Assembly: GCA_002749535.1 (NCBI GenBank)
Contig: MZZL01000400.1
Span: forward strand, 62,001-126,000
Source: Apophysomyces variabilis
Taxonomy: Eukaryota > Mucoromycota > Mucoromycetes > Mucorales > Mucoraceae
Direction: 5' to 3'
DNA: 64,000 nucleotides
Position numbers and translations under genes: made by a program. Below are positions 41,688 through 49,916 of the stretch, one piece after another. The notes beneath the pieces were generated by a model that was not told where the DNA came from, did no database searches, and worked only from the letters and a program-made list of their open reading frames with translations. Position 1 is the stretch's first letter. Each line of letters begins with the position of its first letter.

Positions 41688-41948
41688 ATGCGATTTGCGT
41701 CACTGTATCTTTCCATTGCTGTCTGCTTTGCTGCTACCGCTACGGCTGCTCCAGTGGAGCCTAACGACGGATGCCCAGTGAATGCCTATGGCCAGCCTAT
41801 CTGCAACGAAGTGGTCCAATACGACAAAAGGGACGATGGATGCCCAGTAAACGCCTATGGTCAACCTATCTGCAATGAAGTGATTAAACACGAAAAAAGA
41901 GACGATGGATGTCCTGTGAATGCCTATGGTCAACCTATCTGTAATTAA
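41688..41948 (+). CDS. Kex2-type repeat precursor of a secreted disulfide peptide
   Basis: An 86-residue precursor starts with a signal peptide (MRFASLYLSIAVCFAATATA) and then holds three near-identical repeats with the core DGCPVNAYGQPICN. The repeats are separated by spacers ending in the dibasic KR (QYDKR and KHEKR), the cleavage site of the Golgi protease Kex2. Cleavage would release peptides of about 14-22 residues, each with exactly two cysteines. The CxxxxxGQPxC layout recalls the alpha-type pheromones of filamentous ascomycetes, which share a GQP-C turn between two Cys. Mucoromycetes are not known to use such pheromones in mating, so the role is open. The Met at 41688 is preferred over one 18 bases upstream because it gives the compact signal peptide. 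Confidence 0.75.
   Translation: MRFASLYLSIAVCFAATATAAPVEPNDGCPVNAYGQPICNEVVQYDKRDDGCPVNAYGQPICNEVIKHEKRDDGCPVNAYGQPICN
41766..41945 (+). repeat. Coding tandem repeat, three units of about 66-69 bp
   Basis: The DNA encoding the three peptide cores is repeated head to tail. Differences between units are mostly at third codon positions within the core and more frequent in the spacers, so the peptide core appears to be under selection. This is part of the precursor gene above. Confidence 0.8.
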
Positions 41949-42294
41949 TTTTTAGTGTTGTATAAAGAATAAAAGGATTTAATAAGTAAACAAGTCGCTT
42001 GCTATTTCTCAGTTTTGTCTGGTATATCCATGAGCTGATTAGGCATTCTGACGTTTCAGCACGTCGTTGAAGACGAAAGTTGTGGCGAAATGTGACACAT
42101 TTACCGTTTATTCGACTCTGTTAGATCGACTCTTTAAGACTATTAATATCATACTGCTTCAAATGCAGCCTGTTTCAACATTAGCTTTCACGATGTTCAT
42201 AAAATTCAACCTTTTCCTTTGAAACAAAACGAAAGAAATTCCTTTACTTCTCAATACGCATCCTTCTCCTTTACTGCATCACGGCAAGAAACTA
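41949..42294. other. Intergenic region before the Tc1 element
   Basis: About 350 bp containing the 3' end of the repeat-peptide gene and the Tc1 insertion point. The TA target duplication is at 42293-42294. Nothing else was seen. Confidence 0.5.
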
Positions 42295-42344
42295 CTGGTT
42301 TTTTCAAAAGTTTTTGAAGATTCCGCCTAAAATTGTGTAAAGCT
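42295..42344 (+). repeat. Left terminal inverted repeat of the Tc1 element
   Basis: It begins ctggttttttcaaaag and pairs with 43869-43918 at 47 of 50 positions. A TA immediately precedes it. Confidence 0.95.
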
Positions 42345-42458
42345 TCGGAGAGCGAATTTTGAAAAATCATCCAATGAAATTATGAAAATCTTGTTACTGA
42401 TATTTTGAACAAAGTACATTTTTCTGTTCAGGGCGTAGCGCAACAATATTTAAAAACC

Positions 42459-43778
42459 ATGGGCACTCATAGCACCAACTACGGAATATTAAACGATCAT
42501 CTAATTGAGCAAGACATTGAAATGCAACAATACTCTGATGAGGAAACTGATTTAGCGCAGGACATGGTTGTTGATGACGCCCAAGTGAATTTAGTTACTG
42601 TTTATCAGATGAACATAGATGAAGAACAACGCGTTCCTGATGAGGATTGCTTTTCGGAAGAAGCAAAAGAAGAAGACAAGCCAATTATAAAGGTTATAAA
42701 ACATCAAAAGAGGACAAATAGCAAGTACTCGGCAGACCAAATCGCGAAGTTAATCCATTACAGGATTGAAACCGGTTCAACCATTGCCGAGGCTGCCAGA
42801 AAGGCCGGAATTAAATACAGTGCCGCATACAATTTTGTTAAGCAATACGAAGAAGACCCCGACAAAGCTTTGCCTGGCATTGAACGGAAAGAGAGAGAGA
42901 AACATGGAAGACCTACTAAGCTGAATGAGGAGCACACTAAGTTTCTGACAGCATACTTTGACGGTAAGCCATTTGCTATCTTGGAAGACGCTAGAAATGA
43001 TTTATGTACTGCTTTTGAAGGTCTAAGCGTCAGTATCCCCACTGTGCACAGGCATGTCATTAGCGAATGCAACTTTACGTTGAAAAGAGCAGAGAAGTTA
43101 CCAGCTAAACGAAACAGCGAAGAAATTATTAAGGAAAGGAAAGAGTGGGTAGAAATGATCATGAAAGATGGTTCAATCGAGTACACTACAAATTGTGTTT
43201 TCCTTGACGAATCTGGCTTTAATATGCACAGTATGCGAAACTACGCGAGGTTAAGAAAAGGGGAGCCAGCAAAAGTCATCATTCCAGCCCAACGTGGCAT
43301 ATCAATCACTATTCTAGGTGCCATTTCTTCCGCTGGAGTGATTGATGTATCTTTGCGTTTGCCAGGTGTTTATCACCGAAAGAAAAGATTGAAACACACC
43401 GTGGAACTAGGGCCGATGATTTTGCGGGTCTTTGTAAGAAATGTGTTGGATGTGCTTGACAGAAACAACCTACGTAACTTTAACATCGTTATTGATAATG
43501 CTCCAATTCACTCGTCTGATGGTATAGCTGAGGAAATTAAGGCAAGAGGTCACAAACTTCTTCGATTACCGCAGTATTCACCATTTCTTAACCCAATCGA
43601 GGAGTTCTGGTCCAAAGTTAAAGGTGCAATAAAAAGGCATCCATTGAGTGAAAGTGATCACTTGACTCCTAGGATTGTTGAAGCATGCAAGGAAGTTCGA
43701 AAGAAGGATTGTGAAGGATGGATCAGACATTCAATTTCGTTCTTTCCTCGTTGCTTGGCAGAGCAAAAGAATTTGTAA
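42459..43778 (+). CDS. Tc1/mariner transposase, DD34E
   Basis: A single exon of 439 residues starts at the first ATG of the frame. After an acidic N-terminus of about 80 residues come helix-turn-helix motifs (QIAKLIHYRIETGSTIAEAA, then SIPTVHRHV). The RNase H-like catalytic core follows with the three acidic residues in VFLDESGF, IVIDNAPIH and LNPIEEFWSKVK. There are 34 residues between the second Asp and the Glu, the Tc1 spacing. The enzyme would cut at the TIRs and insert into TA. No stop or frameshift interrupts it, so it should be active if expressed. It could also act on other DNA with matching termini. Confidence 0.93.
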   Translation: MGTHSTNYGILNDHLIEQDIEMQQYSDEETDLAQDMVVDDAQVNLVTVYQMNIDEEQRVPDEDCFSEEAKEEDKPIIKVIKHQKRTNSKYSADQIAKLIHYRIETGSTIAEAARKAGIKYSAAYNFVKQYEEDPDKALPGIERKEREKHGRPTKLNEEHTKFLTAYFDGKPFAILEDARNDLCTAFEGLSVSIPTVHRHVISECNFTLKRAEKLPAKRNSEEIIKERKEWVEMIMKDGSIEYTTNCVFLDESGFNMHSMRNYARLRKGEPAKVIIPAQRGISITILGAISSAGVIDVSLRLPGVYHRKKRLKHTVELGPMILRVFVRNVLDVLDRNNLRNFNIVIDNAPIHSSDGIAEEIKARGHKLLRLPQYSPFLNPIEEFWSKVKGAIKRHPLSESDHLTPRIVEACKEVRKKDCEGWIRHSISFFPRCLAEQKNL

Positions 43779-43868
43779 TAAACATATCTTCAAATATCTG
43801 AATCCGAAATAAGTGTTTGCTTTTCTTCAGAATTTCATTAGACCAATTTATAAAGATTCCATCTCAGC

Positions 43869-43918
43869 AGCTTTAAACAATTTTGGGCGGAATCTTCAAA
43901 AACTTTTTAAAAAACCAG
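43869..43918 (-). repeat. Right terminal inverted repeat of the Tc1 element
   Basis: It ends aaaaaaccag and is followed by TA. It is the inverted partner of 42295-42344. A related terminus occurs again at 49166-49208. Confidence 0.95.
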
Positions 43919-43920
43919 TA

Positions 43921-45906
43921 TCAGCTGTAATGACTGTTCGGATCAGGTTACACTAACACCTTTTATATTCTATTCATCTGTTGCTGAGACACCAGCGGAC
44001 ACAGAATATCAAAAGACAAAAGATTAACGTGTCATTACCGATCGTACGGATTTTACAAAAGATACTAGTAACTACCCCAACCCGCTTTTACCCGCACGCA
44101 CTGTCTAAAATATTTAAAGAGAGCAATTAGTTATGAANGGATCACACAGAAAATCCCGGAAAAGGAAGCGAAAAAGTCGGAAGAAACATGTCATAAAGAT
44201 TCAGAAGTTGGCAATCCGTTACACCAAAGGTTAGTATTTATCTGCATGACAGTTCGTTACCTGCAGGAATTAACAGCTAATTGATAGCCTTCCCCAGCCA
44301 AATACATCTGCCGAGCGCAGTACGCTTAAAAAAACCAAGNATTTTCTAAGCACGGACTAATTAAATAGCTGGCTTTCAATTCTACTTCTACTTTCTACTT
44401 CCGGCTAAAGTCTAACACATACCATAGAGGCTTACGTGATATTTAAAGCAAGCCATGGTTCCCCAACCATCTGATCCTTGTTCTCAATATCCTGTTGATT
44501 TTGTCACGAACAAAATAATCACGGAACTTTTGACCATTCTACCATATCAGCTTCCTCAATACGTGAGGTCTCATCCATAGCTGCCCTGTTACGCTGAATA
44601 AATGAGAGTAGCACTTCCTGTCCAGGAACGTTATTCATAGTGTAGTTAGTGATCACAAGAATAAGTGATAGAAAATTAGAAAATGAGACTTAAAAAGGTC
44701 CACTAAGTATGACCCTGCTTTGTTTATAAAGTGTGATCCAGAATGCATATCAAAGAAAGTTTGATTGTTCTTTCTAACAAAACAATGATGAATACATGTT
44801 TTAGTGGTAAAGTTAACAATGAGTGTACAAAGAATTGTATCAATAGCCCTTCGTTGAGCAGACGATGACCGTAATGACACATCATACCTGTATTATCTCT
44901 AGATGAATTCTGATCTCATACACACTAATGCATTCTGGTTGGTGACACGAGGCATCACATACTGCACCTTCGTATTCTCTTTCTCTAGCTTTGATAGTTA
45001 TATTGTTTTTAATTGAATCTATCGTCACCACCTGTGTAATGGACGAAGTTTGGCAAAGCTGTGGAAATCCGCATTATAGGCACGTGTGAATCGAGTGCGA
45101 AACAAAACGTTATCAAAGGCAAAACCTAGTTCGAGTCCAGTCAGAGAGGATACTTGTTTTGACAAGCACGAATATAATACTCTTTTTCTTACGTCCACTT
45201 TCCCTTGGTTTTTCCTTCAATGGTTATCATCAATGACTGATTCCGTATTACACATTTCCATAGACCTCCTATTTGCCCTTTTCATTTCCATCAGTTTATT
45301 AGTCTATTCACCTTTGCTTTTTTCATGATTTAAGAAAAGCAGAAAAGCTTCAAAAAGTAGAGGCCACAAACAAAGGGTTTGTCATAAAGGCTTATCTTTT
45401 TGACCTACAAGTGTCTTTGTATACATTTCAAAATTAGATATTGTAATCTTCTTTGACAGAAGTATGAGTATCGTAGAATATAGCAGTATACTGTATGATT
45501 TACACATACGCGACATTTGGCACGACTCACCTGTCAAGTATGTGATATCGGCTTGTAACTTACAATTTCGGAAAACCGGTTAGGCCTACACATCTTAAAA
45601 GTCCTGTTTAGCGGGGCTTGTATGGTTTTGATAACCTTGAATTAGTAGCGCAGCGTAGACCCTGAAGCTTAATTTGACATTCTTGTTTCAAGCATGATGC
45701 GTCTCTGTTTAAAAAAAGTTGTCCAACCTACCAGCTTAAAAAATTTAATAGAATTTGTTTTGTTAGAAAAATGAAAAAGTCGGTCTTAAACTTTCGAAGG
45801 TCTTATTTATGAATGTCGAGGAATAGATCATTGAATGGCATAATGGAAAAAGTTGTTTCCATGTAAAGACGACGAAGTTATAGTCTGGATACACCGTCAT
45901 TAATAA
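43921..45906. other. Gene-poor stretch with a pasted Fanzor fragment
   Basis: Apart from the fragment at 44139-44339, I see no gene, RNA or left-end TIR in these 2 kb. I searched by eye for a copy of the Tc1 left terminus that could pair with the right terminus at 49208 and found none. Confidence 0.4.
44139..44339 (+). pseudogene. 201-bp copy of a piece of the Fanzor gene, bounded by single Ns
   Basis: This stretch matches about 48275-48475 of the intact Fanzor gene almost base for base: the Arg/Lys-rich end of exon 6, the whole following intron and the start of exon 7. There are only a few substitutions (such as acatgtcat for gcaggtcaat). Single Ns sit exactly at both ends (44138 and 44340). 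It is either an assembly filler contig from another genomic copy or a real fragment. Either way a second Fanzor copy exists in this genome. Confidence 0.85.
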
Positions 45907-48900
45907 GTGAAGAGCAAAAGTTGTCCAATTACGCATGTGACGGTTTCGGATTACCATCGTACCTTAAAAGAGACAACAGAAGTAACAAGAACATTCTATC
46001 ACATCTCTTTTGCGTTGTCTTTTCTCATTATGCTTCAAGCCGTCTTTGAGTGGTGCTGTTCAAAATTGACAGCTTTGATTCCGCGTTCCTATGAATGGAA
46101 CTGGCAAGGTATCGTCTGCCTTTGCAAAATCAGAAAATATTTCCAACAAGAAGCAGAACGCTTAAAACGAGAAGAAGGTGAGTCTTACAGAAGGGACAAG
46201 TTTTTCTTGATCAATAGCCTTATTTATCATTGCACACATATCATGTTCAGTCTTTTGCAAAGACTGCGGGCAGAATGGTCATCCAAATAAACGATACAAG
46301 GCATGTCCATTGAACGCGCGCCATGGAAAGAAACCTGGTAAGCTAATACATTTTCTAATCCGCAACGTGTCTCTGATAACGTCCCTTCCTGTGTAAGTTG
46401 GAGTAAAAAGAAAATTGAATGCTACAGAGGAGGCAGAGTTTTCAGCGGCAAAAAAACGTGGAAGACAACTCAAAGCGGAGGAGACATCGAATCCAAATAA
46501 ATCCAACAAACCATGCCCGAGCTGCGGCGGTATCGATCATTCGAAATCTTCTTCTAAAAATTGCAGGAAACCCTCCAAAACGAAAAAGAGCGTTATCGCG
46601 GAGAAACTAAACGACAATCATTACGAAACTTTTACTCGAAAGTTACCAACTTCATCTGTGGTGCGTCAAGAATTTCGAGAGATTTTCCAGGAGAATAGCG
46701 TTCGATTATCGGCATTCCTTAGGGAAAGTTATCTTCCGTGCTCAGCTACTTGTCAACTCGTACATTATTGCGAACTGTGATAGACCGGTGCCTTCTTATA
46801 TTTATACTCAAAACTTCTGGTATTCGGCGTGTCAGCTTATCATGGGCATCAATATTAGCAACAACAACCCCAATTTCCCTCAAGACCTACGTGATCACTG
46901 GAGAGCGTTCTTGGATAACCATCCAAATGCTCTTTATCCTGTTAGGAATTTTTCCGGTTACAGTGATGCCCTTTCCGCGGCCTGTGTCACGTTAGCCACC
47001 ACATATTCCAACAATGTCGCTGAAAACTTTGAAGGTCGCCTAAAGTTTTATATCTCGAGACGACTTACAAAGCTTATACTTGTAAGATGAAAGCATACAT
47101 AGTGCATACCTCTCAACTAACTATATATGTATAGGGCTTATCCCAAAAAAATGCAAAAGCCATTGCAGGAGACTATATTTATGAACTACTTGCTAGAGGT
47201 GATCCTCACTGGCCTTTCGAAGATGAACTTGCCGTCTCGGACTTTGATCAGGCTGTAGAAACCATTTGTGGCGAGTTTGCGACACTAATGCCCGAATGGC
47301 AAACAAACGCGGAAAAACTATCTGCTTTTCCAGGCAGCTACATTCCAGTGTTAGCATATATACTCACCGAATACAATCGAGAGCATGAAGAAGCCAAACA
47401 AAAACAAAACGCTCAAGGAGAGCAATACGATCCAAAAAACGAAGAAGCCGAAAAGGCAAAAGGTAGTTTTAAGGATCTACCGCGATTGTTTTCTCTGTCT
47501 CCGTCTCCTTCAACTCATTGGAGATTTATCTGCGTTAATTCCAAGACCCTTCAACAGTTAACGAACATCAGCCACCGAAAAGACTATGAGGACCAGCTTG
47601 CCCAGTTTTATCAAGTTTTTGATTTCCACAAGCTGGGATTTGACAGGTATTTACTATGATTATTTGTAGCTAAATCTCTCAAAAATGTTTGTTAGTCTGG
47701 AGCAGCTTCAAAATTTCGGTAACAGTGGACGAATCGCTTTCAAAAATGTTATCTTCACCGATGGCTACGCGATTGACTTCCAGTTCGCTCGCGCACGAAA
47801 GATTGAGTCAGTGGTCACGGACGCCAGCCTCTCTGTTGAAGACATTGACGGTAACCATATCTATGACAATTTTGCACCATGTGCGATTGATCCGGGCATC
47901 AATCAAGTCTTTACTGCTTCTTATGGCTGCGGATCAGAACCTCATGAAATAAGGAGATGCTCAACCAAAGAATACTATGTGTATACTGGTTCGCCGAATA
48001 GACAGAATAAAATGGAGAAGGAAAAAAAGCAGCAAGGTATACAAGACATTGAAACCTCATTGGAGTCTGGAAAAACAGCGCATATCGAAGCCTACGACGG
48101 TTATCTACGATCTATATTCGGCAATATGGACGTGCTTTTCCAGTTTTATGGTCCGCATCGAGCTGAAGCTCGATTTCGAGGATATCAAGGCGTGCAAAGA
48201 GCAAGAGAGGAAATGGTCAATATACTAGCATTTGGTGGTAAAAAGTACAACTGTAGCAGACGGAAACGGACGAGATCAAACAGAAAATCCCGGAAAAGGA
48301 AGCGAAAAAGTCGGAAGAAGCAGGTCAATAAAGATTCAGAAGTTGGCAATCCGTTACACCAAAGGTTAGTATTTATCTGCATGACAGTTCGTTACCTGCA
48401 GGAATTAACAGCTAATTGATAGCCTTCCCCAGCCAAATACATCTGCCGAGCGCAGTACGCTTAAAAAAACCAAGCGTTTACCTCACTGGAGGCAAAAGAA
48501 ATTCACTGTTGAAAGGAAAGTGCCACTCATTGTATTTGGGGACGGGATGTTCAACAATCGATGCAACTACAAAGGACACCGAAAGGGAGTTGTGAATATC
48601 CTATGGAGATCTTTGAAACGGAGAGAAAAGCGCGAAGAACTATTGGTGCTCACGATAGATGAATACCTTTCTTCGCAAGTAAGTTGGAGCGATTGATAGT
48701 AATATAATGCTCACAAACGTCGTTTAGGTGTGCCATAGCTGCAGATACAGGTCCCTGCAAAAGCTTACCACAGCCGATTGCGTTTCTCACCATAGCATCT
48801 TGGTATGCAAAAACTGTAAGATGTTATGGGACCGAGACGTCTTGGCCAGTAAAAGTTTATTCTTGATTGCGGAGTCAATTTGGTCTGGGCAAGGAAGACC

Positions 48901-48976
48901 AAGAGAGTTTGCCCGGCCTTCATTAGATCAATACACCGCCGTTACGAATACGGTTGGTCCCTCCGGGGACTTTTAG
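45907..48976 (+). CDS. Fanzor: eukaryotic TnpB-like RNA-guided nuclease gene
   Basis: Eight exons (45907-46177, 46251-46337, 46398-46664, 46723-47081, 47135-47646, 47696-48364, 48456-48678, 48728-48976) total 2637 nt and close in frame (878 residues). Two zinc knuckles, CKDCGQNGHPNKRYKAC near residue 93 and CPSCGGIDHSKSSSKNC near 159, precede the TnpB-like body. RuvC-I is CAIDPGINQVFTASYG (Asp near 564). RuvC-II is TIDEYLSSQ (Glu near 790). A zinc ribbon (CHSC...CKNC) separates it from RuvC-III, LWDRDVLASKS (Asp near 831). All catalytic positions are intact. A basic NRKSRKRKRKSRKKQ could be a nuclear signal. Known Fanzors cut DNA guided by an RNA from the element's 3' end; function here is inferred. 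The start codon is uncertain (46030 is an alternative), and the 46665-46722 intron could instead be a frameshift. Confidence 0.85.
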
Positions 48977-48985
48977 GTTTTTACG

Positions 48986-49045
48986 GTAAGTGTATTAGCC
49001 AATTTTTCTAGTTAGGATTGTTTTACTAACGTTTATCTTTCGCAG
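48986..49045 (+). other. Probable spliced intron just after the Fanzor stop codon
   Basis: GTAAGT at the 5' side, a perfect TACTAAC branch-point motif at 49024-49030 and a TTTCGCAG 3' site define a 60-nt intron starting nine bases after the stop codon. An intron downstream of a stop is unusual. It may shape the 3' RNA that Fanzors use as guide scaffold. Confidence 0.6.
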
Positions 49046-49139
49046 GTGGTCACGCCGGTAAGTTCACTATCACAGTTTAACAGAGGATAATCACTAACAT
49101 TTTGTTGGCAAATTATTTATAACTTTTATACCCAAATCT

Positions 49140-49208
49140 TCAAACAATTTTGGGTGGAATCTTCAAACAATTTTGGATGAAATCTTTAAAAACTTTTGAA
49201 TAAACCAG
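49140..49208 (-). repeat. Tc1-like right terminus downstream of the Fanzor gene
   Basis: The segment ends aaaccag followed by TA (49209-49210). Its last 43 bases match the right TIR of the Tc1 element (43876-43918) with six differences. The preceding bases repeat the subterminal motif (aatcttcaaacaattttgg) a second time, a 23-bp duplication. It marks the right end of the element carrying the Fanzor gene and lies 202 bp before the QCR6 start codon. Confidence 0.85.
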
Positions 49209-49410
49209 TAGAGTGCACAGCTCAGGAACGGGACCGTCTATGAGAGGACAGTCCCATTTTACGTCATTTTTTCAGATTTTGCTAGGGGTAGAGCGAGTGG
49301 CTCCAAAAGCAAGTCCCGCGGTTTCGACACAGAAAACAACAGCACCCTTCACTTTAACGGTCCCAACTACCCTTTTTTTCTCCCCGCTCTGTATATCCAA
49401 TTCAGTAACC

Positions 49411-49916
49411 ATGGGTCTCGTCGAACTCTTTACAACCTTCATTCCTACCGTCTACGCTGAAGAAGAAGAACAGCCTGTTGAAGCGGTTGAAGTTGTCGCA
49501 GAAGAGGAGGAAGAAGAAGAAGAAGAGCCCGAGGATCCCAAGGAAGCCATTATGGAAGGTAATTCAATGCGTGCGACGTACCCAATTCAAAGTGTTGACG
49601 TGTTTTTTCATTGTTAGAATGTGCCAACGAATGCTCCAAACTCAAGCATCACCTTGACGAATGTAACGAGCGCGTCGAGAATGGCTCCAGCGAAAATTGT
49701 AAGCGAGAAACTTCGAGATAGAAAATATATGTAGACCACGGGCTGCTGATACGAATAATACTTATAGGCATTGAAGAGTTCTTCCATTTCATGCACTGTG
49801 CTGACGAATGTGTAAGTTTTGGTAGCTGTGATGTTATGGAAAAGGAAAGAATGATTTTGGTATACTAATGCGAGTGTATTTAGGCTGCTCCCAAGATCTT
49901 TGCTGCCACCAAATAA
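49411..49916 (+). CDS. QCR6: Cytochrome bc1 complex subunit 6 (hinge protein)
   Basis: Exons 49411-49558, 49618-49698, 49768-49811 and 49884-49916 encode 101 residues. The protein sits on the intermembrane face of complex III and helps the cytochrome c1-cytochrome c interaction. The sequence has a short N-terminal targeting part, a highly acidic run (eleven glutamates around residues 33-45) and the conserved helical hairpin with Cys pairs (ECANECSKLKHHLDECNERV, then FFHFMHCADECAAPKIF). Length and layout match the family. The transposon terminus lies only 202 bp upstream, so its promoter is short or shared. Confidence 0.92.

Follow-up and report, generated by a model that had tools for sequence, protein, structure and literature searches.

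A frame-broken copy of a multi-copy Fanzor1 transposon family with a predicted RCTA TAM

Guided by RNA, Fanzors cut DNA both in vitro and in human cells, and in the available text of PMC10432273 their natural role is stated to be unknown. The best relative by sequence in the PDB of the protein described here is SpuFz1 (element SPu-1) of Spizellomyces punctatus (PMC10432273, PMC3627910; PDB 8GKH). According to the accessible parts of these sources, SPu-1 is a single 633-codon open reading frame with no transposase, flanked by TA target duplications; copies have a conserved CA to the left of the left repeat, which together with TA forms the TAM CATA (PMC10432273), and the guide RNA, of 88–90 nt with a 14–15 nt guide, comes from the right end (PMC10432273, PMC3627910). 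Fanzor1 genes in mariner-type elements with TA duplications were also known already: in PUl-1, PUl-4 and PGv-1 a pair of mariner-like repeats encloses Fanzor1, sometimes together with a mariner transposase, and Fanzors have been found in Mucor, Rhizopus and Phycomyces (PMC3627910, in the part available). A Fanzor1 from the Mucorales, the order to which the first-pass annotation had assigned the DNA studied here, is PpFz1 of Parasitella parasitica; its structure has been solved and, as far as the accessible text of PMC11423790 goes, it has the TAM ATN, a 75-nt guide RNA and an FRI insertion. Finally, CRe-1/2/3 of Chlamydomonas and MCi-2 of Mucor have truncated or fuzzy left ends and exact right ends, with flank repeats of 7–19 bp and 11–12 bp, respectively; in Chlamydomonas, such repeats were found in 1 of 200 copies of a Fanzor-less relative of the truncated Fanzor Helitrons (PMC3627910, available part).

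The window, that is, the whole stretch of 64,000 nucleotides that was analysed (C86:62001-126000), contains a Fanzor element that resembles SPu-1 in its TA target duplications, in conserved bases to the left of the left repeat that are predicted to form a TAM with TA, and in a candidate guide RNA from the right end. Unlike SPu-1, the present family has seven exons and 856 codons, is partly a composite with a transposase, and has RCTA as its predicted TAM. It differs from PUl-1, PUl-4 and PGv-1, which come from other hosts, in that the Fanzor body is headed by an entire mariner unit, which has a right repeat of its own. PpFz1, with its different TAM, guide RNA length and insertion, was not among the PDB matches of the present protein. 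Three insertions with 12-nt repeats (see below) recall the flank repeats of CRe-1/2/3 and MCi-2; the latter elements are, however, Helitron-type or unclassified, and in the available part of PMC3627910 their authors discuss one-ended transposition and not nuclease cutting. Neither an RCTA TAM nor cutting scars appeared in the titles of the open-licence Fanzor literature that was searched. As the type of Fanzor itself is known, what deserves attention is the evidence from the borders at the level of the family.

The element bearing the gene is 6.9 kb long (42295-49208) with TA on both sides, so that its placement inside a defined element by the first-pass annotation was borne out. Judged from the sequence, the mariner/IS630 unit and the Fanzor body form one TA-flanked element whose order of parts recurs at other loci (Table 1). 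Inverted repeats, a TA duplication and a DDE transposase place the former part with Tc1/mariner/IS630. No left repeat was found between the mariner unit (ending at 43918) and the second right repeat (ending at 49208). The same order is present in C94 and C95a, and C93 and C87 agree with it over their readable parts (2191 and 3300 bases, respectively, are N). The older copies C94c, C95d and C76a consist of the left repeat, about 100 unmatched bases and the Fanzor body, with the mariner coding part absent; thus, a transposase-less Fanzor element and a mariner-headed composite both exist, and presumably both moved via the shared repeats. Among 20 other copies, 11 match the window up to exactly 49210 and no further; in most of the others the match breaks off earlier, in or near the right repeat, and many copies are devoid of one 24-nt unit there. 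The segment 44138-44340 is probably a wrong gap fill, i.e. a fault of the assembly.

Table 1. Positions of the features of the element in the window, with the profile score or model on which each assignment is based where one was given.
Feature	Position	Strand	Basis
ACTA next to the left end of the element, predicted TAM (RCTA); its last two bases, TA, form the left target-site duplication	42291..42294	+	
Complete mariner/IS630 unit; inverted repeats of 75 nt (87% complementary); next two bases TA (43919-43920)	42295..43918	+	
DDE transposase frame, 466 codons from stop to stop	42378..43778	+	PF13358 75.7 bits, PF01527 32.8 bits
Duplicate of Fanzor exon/intron sequence between single Ns; C94, C95a and C93 have 362 other bases	44138..44340	.	
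Fanzor exon 1; start codon of the model at 46030	46030..46177	+	sibling comparison
Fanzor exon 2; zinc-knuckle-like CCHC	46251..46337	+	sibling comparison
Fanzor exon 3; one-base frame break near 46.72 kb	46398..47081	+	sibling comparison
Fanzor exon 4	47135..47646	+	sibling comparison
Fanzor exon 5; candidate RuvC Asp D542 (codon 47889-47891), basic cluster	47696..48364	+	sibling model
Fanzor exon 6; candidate RuvC Glu E769 (codon 48661-48663)	48456..48678	+	sibling model
Fanzor exon 7; zinc ribbon, candidate RuvC Asp D811 (codon 48836-48838), stop 48974-48976	48728..48976	+	sibling model
Candidate guide-RNA scaffold; noncoding part conserved across elements with divergent Fanzors	48956..49208	+	
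Hairpin GUCCC-UCCG-GGGAC at end of reading frame; arms vary between families	48957..48970	+	
Candidate 3'UTR intron, 60 bases (GTAAGT ... TACTAAC ... CAG)	48986..49045	+	sequence motifs
Right terminal repeat of Fanzor element, complement of 42295 onward	49161..49208	+	
AATAAA in right repeat; left repeats mostly AAAAAA at the matching place	49199..49204	+	
Right TA target-site duplication; the guide would start at 49211	49209..49210	+	

Two neighbouring genes were observed. Positions 41688-41948 encode a small secreted-peptide precursor with a signal-peptide-like start and three (KR)DDGCPVNAYGQPICN copies separated by KR sites; it resembles precursors of alpha-factor-type pheromones (Pfam MF_alpha, 13.9 bits, under the cut-off of 19). 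On the other side, UQCRH (hinge protein; PF02320, 87.5 bits with exons joined by hand) starts at 49411, which is 203 bp past the element and in the same direction, and the insertion thus lies in the upstream region of UQCRH.

The identity of the protein was assessed with the translation of the open sibling C87, and comparisons beyond the fungus's own genome were made with PDB chains and library profiles. In the kind of profile search that had been proposed for the window gene, this translation matched PF07282, the TNB zinc ribbon (33.8 bits with a cut-off of 26.3), and at E≤0.001 the only PDB relatives by sequence were SpuFz1 and GtFz1, in agreement with the earlier identification as Fanzor; NCBIfam TnpB models gave weak matches far under their cut-off (20.3 vs 425). 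The nearest PDB relatives being Fanzor1 proteins, and AIDPG standing at the first catalytic Asp, the class is Fanzor1 as judged from PDB relatives and element type. In the phmmer alignment, the zinc ribbon and two of the three catalytic residues align with SpuFz1: E769 falls in the segment LLDEYKTSSVC and D811 in WNRDML. If the chain numbering includes a tag of 394 residues, as assumed here, these would be SpuFz1 E541 and D606 (the offset itself being inferred), and the available text of PMC10432273 names E541 and D606 among the magnesium ligands. D542 lies outside the program's alignment and carries DPG, a signature of Fanzors at the first catalytic Asp (PMC10711439, accessible part). The Fanzor/TnpB pattern D-X(125,275)-[TS][TS]-X-X-[C4 zinc finger]-X(5,50)-RD, taken from the part of PMC3627910 available, was recognized by inspection in the sibling model as D542, about 229 residues, SSQV followed by CHSC...CKNC, 5 residues, and R810-D811. 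D542, E769 and D811 are thus candidate RuvC residues of the sibling protein.

These features had been described for the window gene itself, and there too the description held: the Asp in AIDPG, the Glu in TIDEY and the Asp in DRDVL are all encoded in window exons, the zinc ribbon CHSC...CKNC is encoded between the Glu and the last Asp, and the basic cluster reads RKRKRKSRKK. The window copy was absent among the matches listed in the PF07282 search of the whole genome (at least 73 matches, from the best 150 of 164 candidates scored), an absence that is probably due to an intron interrupting its zinc ribbon. The number of matches in this one genome also indicates that several Fanzor lineages coexist. 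Two N-terminal CCHC-like zinc-knuckle motifs were noted at sibling residues 51-77 and 118-134 (window exons 2 and 3; Pfam 15.3 bits, cut-off 22).

The gene lies on the + strand with seven coding exons, which were assembled by eye and compared with the sister copies, and introns that are all GT-AG and 49 to 91 bases long. The exon model, of 856 codons, was fixed by the sister copies, and sibling numbering is used for residues throughout. Position 45907, given previously as the start of the gene, is merely a stop-to-stop boundary. Set against the open siblings, the reading frame of the window copy is shifted by one base within exon 3, at about 46.72 kb, and runs into a stop at codon 206. The copy can therefore not be called complete and apparently active as first proposed, nor does its spliced frame close over eight exons: the sibling-fitted model has seven and leaves the frame. 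The extra exon may have come from forced splicing within exon 3. When all GT-AG pairs of 40-130 nt within exon 3 were listed, 15 of 109 would restore the window's frame, each by deleting 13 to 42 codons that the open siblings encode; the eight-exon model was rejected, since it needs the removal of exon 3 sequence that open sisters use as coding. That the copy is complete by virtue of an additional frame-keeping intron thus draws on these 15 pairs, and is set against the coding use of the same stretch in the siblings, whose frames the intron would break; we regard it as extremely improbable. The break could also be an error of assembly or sequencing in a copy that is truly open, and the same locus does carry the probable wrong gap fill with its single Ns. 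However, the same change in length is found at other loci in C95a and C89, in C95a with a different base, and an error is in our judgment quite improbable. As a candidate for functional study the window copy, with its broken frame, was not upheld, and the recommendation passes to its sisters C87, C93 and C94a, which are open and have kept the triad.

Sister copies were sought in the 38.7-Mb genome (126 contigs). A six-frame search with the window exons yielded at least 135 matches (among the best 79 of 531 candidates scored), including at least 20 close Fanzor copies, while other copies range down to about 40% identity. Ten young copies are 99.0–99.8% identical to the window over the aligned part, and three of these (C87, C93 and C94a) combine an open frame with the triad. 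The 856-codon seven-exon model is open in C87, C93 and C95b, as well as in C94a, whose exon 1 was read on its own; C95b (L016, C95:1798158-1801850) is young with an open frame and has DIY for DRD, by which the third catalytic Asp is lost. In C43 and C41 the break lies in the last exon, exon 7, and homology of C35 starts only at 46899. The older copies, when spliced, were all broken (11 of 11). Fixed differences between young and old copies comprised 23 synonymous and 18 nonsynonymous changes (dN/dS ∼0.26), and private changes of old copies 111 and 298 (dN/dS 0.88), respectively (Fisher p 2.5e-4). With the fixed differences constrained and the private ones near neutral, selection acted while the family spread, single copies decaying later; these substitution patterns indicate that the Fanzor protein lineage evolved under purifying selection. 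The broken copies (window, C95a and C89) are as young as the open ones, so that spread does not require the protein in cis.

For the borders, 68 left-end sequences were put through one automatic rule, and 46 could be read: 42 of Fanzor type and 4 controls (three solo mariners and C62, of unknown content). The 42 ends are a sample, since the searches scored the best candidates (for instance the best 40 of 129 and the best 40 of 136), and were classed by likeness to the ends of Fanzor elements or composites, not each by a Fanzor gene (e.g. C77 and C81). The other 22 were unreadable by the rule and uncounted; by eye, C precedes TA in L045, L060, L061, L066, L086, L087, L095, L132 and L135, A precedes TA in L082, C precedes TG in L137 and L138, and the remainder are without a clear tip. 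Left out of the 68 were L043 (flank as C94a), L053-L055 (elements of L056, L057 and L080), L076 (taken as an inner mariner end), L103 and L105 (right ends), L101 (C35, no tip), and L098 and L099. The last two were rejected as mariner left ends, being right ends of Fanzor elements, and were counted on the right.

At the 42 Fanzor-type left ends the base before TA was C in 39, G in 2 and T in 1, and the base at −2 was A in 29, G in 12 and T in 1; the position beyond was even (11, 11, 10 and 10). RC thus stood before TA, giving RCTA, at 38 of the 42 ends, with a background at the window's own TA sites of 18.5% for C and 9.3% for RC. The left bias was not mirrored after the right TA, where T was found at 16, A at 15, G at 7 and C at 6 of 44 right ends. 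None of the three solo mariners lies at RCTA (GT, AT and AT precede TA; Fisher p 0.0014 vs Fanzor-type ends, with control n=3). C precedes TA at all seven left ends with a mariner repeat beside a composite body, of which C81 was classed by its end and not by a Fanzor gene, and at none of the three solo mariners (p 0.008). RCTA was also found at elements with divergent Fanzors, for instance at C64:209284 (Fanzor 39% identical), and the variation between A and G at −2 speaks against a motif that the element carries along with it. As read from these borders, the Fanzor-type elements lie at RCTA. By the logic that derives CATA from the CA and TA of SpuFz1, RCTA is the predicted TAM of the Fanzor here.

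Insertion preferences of transposases are common, and the bias to RCTA could be due to a transposase inserting asymmetrically, with the Fanzor as a passenger that has no part in retention. The solo mariners, only three in number, likewise have a purine at −2. Against this stand the restriction of the bias to the left, although one target supplies both borders, and the presence of C at each of the mariner-repeat composite left ends vs none of the solo mariners; we consider an origin in the transposase rather unlikely. A further group of observations concerns 35 elements with both flanks. In three of these (C95a, C95:970860 and C99) a 12-nt target repeat replaces the left tip: TA and about 10 target bases occupy its place and are repeated after the exact right end, the 12 bases being exact in two elements and interrupted by one inserted base in the third. 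These scars fell in 3 of 8 elements with a damaged left tip and in 0 of 27 others; a crude expectation by chance at the exact place is 0.017 in 35. Target bases to the left of the element imply a break or switch in an empty-site molecule, located downstream of the insertion point, and the joining of that molecule to the element, as expected if a Fanzor had cut the empty site. Ordinary aberrant transposition or template switching, with no Fanzor cutting, has about an even chance of being the source. There are just three cases, all within the eight damaged left tips with known right flank, yet a break or switch downstream in the empty site is needed at roughly the same distance three times, and similar repeats accompany Fanzor elements of other superfamilies in the accessible part of PMC3627910; the factor common to the repeats of Chlamydomonas, Mucor and the present family is Fanzor. 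An empty site was not found with the one query used, in which the joined flanks of C94a matched nothing beyond the occupied site and, on C49, that same left flank. This short contig (L043, C49:1-1666) has the left flank and left end of the C94 insertion, and is a duplicate or an alternative assembly of that locus.

The noncoding block between stop codon and element end in C93 is 84 to 95% identical to that of twelve other elements. Among these are C124 (L168; 94.7%), C100 (L174; 92.3%) and C116 (L167; 91.7%), whose Fanzors are only 43 to 44% identical over the main match; the block is either strongly constrained or exchanged between elements. The arms of the hairpin at the stop codon (H1) differ by family (GUCCC/GGGAC, GACCC/GGGUU and UUCCC/GGGAA), and their pairing exceeds that of shuffles (0.80 vs 0.72, reached by 5 of 2000 shuffles), whereas pair types and double changes do not (reached by 923 and 705 of 2000). 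Pairing of the hairpins H0 and H2 was not above shuffles either (1027 and 366 of 2000 reach it). In these counts 4 of 38 sequences were unplaced (L170, L177 and L179 without anchor, L185 without H2), and that for H1 includes L184 in the wrong family, which weighs against H1. Alifold on 35 right-end sequences gave two short helices, and Rfam had 0 matches within the window. AATAAA stands directly before CCAG at 36 of 46 readable right ends (49 examined); at the corresponding place of the left ends its count was 0 of 42. At poly(A) signals cleavage takes place some distance downstream, on which basis transcript ends were placed past AATAAA. A poly(A) signal in the right repeat would let transcripts end about 5 to 25 bases into the host flank, a distance that fits a guide in length. 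The guide RNA from this end that the first-pass annotation had suggested is plausible. In 49058-49208 and the related right ends GGTAAG, ACTAAC and the terminal CCAG are conserved, and AG in between was seen 19 times vs 134 expected by composition (39 related, non-independent sequences). From these motifs, the right tip of the element could serve as a 3' splice site in the manner of an IStron; an IStron-like donor site was not seen at the left tip.

Overall, the locus is probably best explained as a young copy that is dead at the protein level, one of many in a Fanzor1 transposon family, with RCTA-directed retention inferred from the borders. In the mechanism proposed, the DDE transposase would move the element through its terminal repeats, and a transcript would be turned into a guide RNA in which the right-end block is followed by 10-20 nt of the host flank; the AATAAA of the right repeat would perhaps determine the 3' end of this RNA. 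The complex of Fanzor and guide would recognize RCTA plus flank, that is, the unoccupied site, and cut it, after which repair from the occupied copy would restore the element. The window copy makes no protein, but may supply a guide to protein made by its sisters.

A more specific proposal is that in this fungus the Fanzor serves its transposon as a homing nuclease; we put this forward tentatively, as a possibility with somewhat less than even prospects. The cut would then be made at an unoccupied RCTA, past roughly the tenth base of the sequence matched by the guide, and repair would copy the element in starting at its right end, with the three scars as traces. Dozens of related Fanzor insertions, with 42 readable left borders, make such a role testable in this genome, and the set of borders offers the RCTA prediction, the right border as an internal control, evidence of selection and a few possible scars. 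If true, homing would explain the 7–19 bp repeats of the Chlamydomonas Helitrons and the 11–12 bp repeats of MCi-2 as described in the available part of PMC3627910, and would supply the biological role of Fanzors that PMC10432273, in its accessible text, calls unknown.
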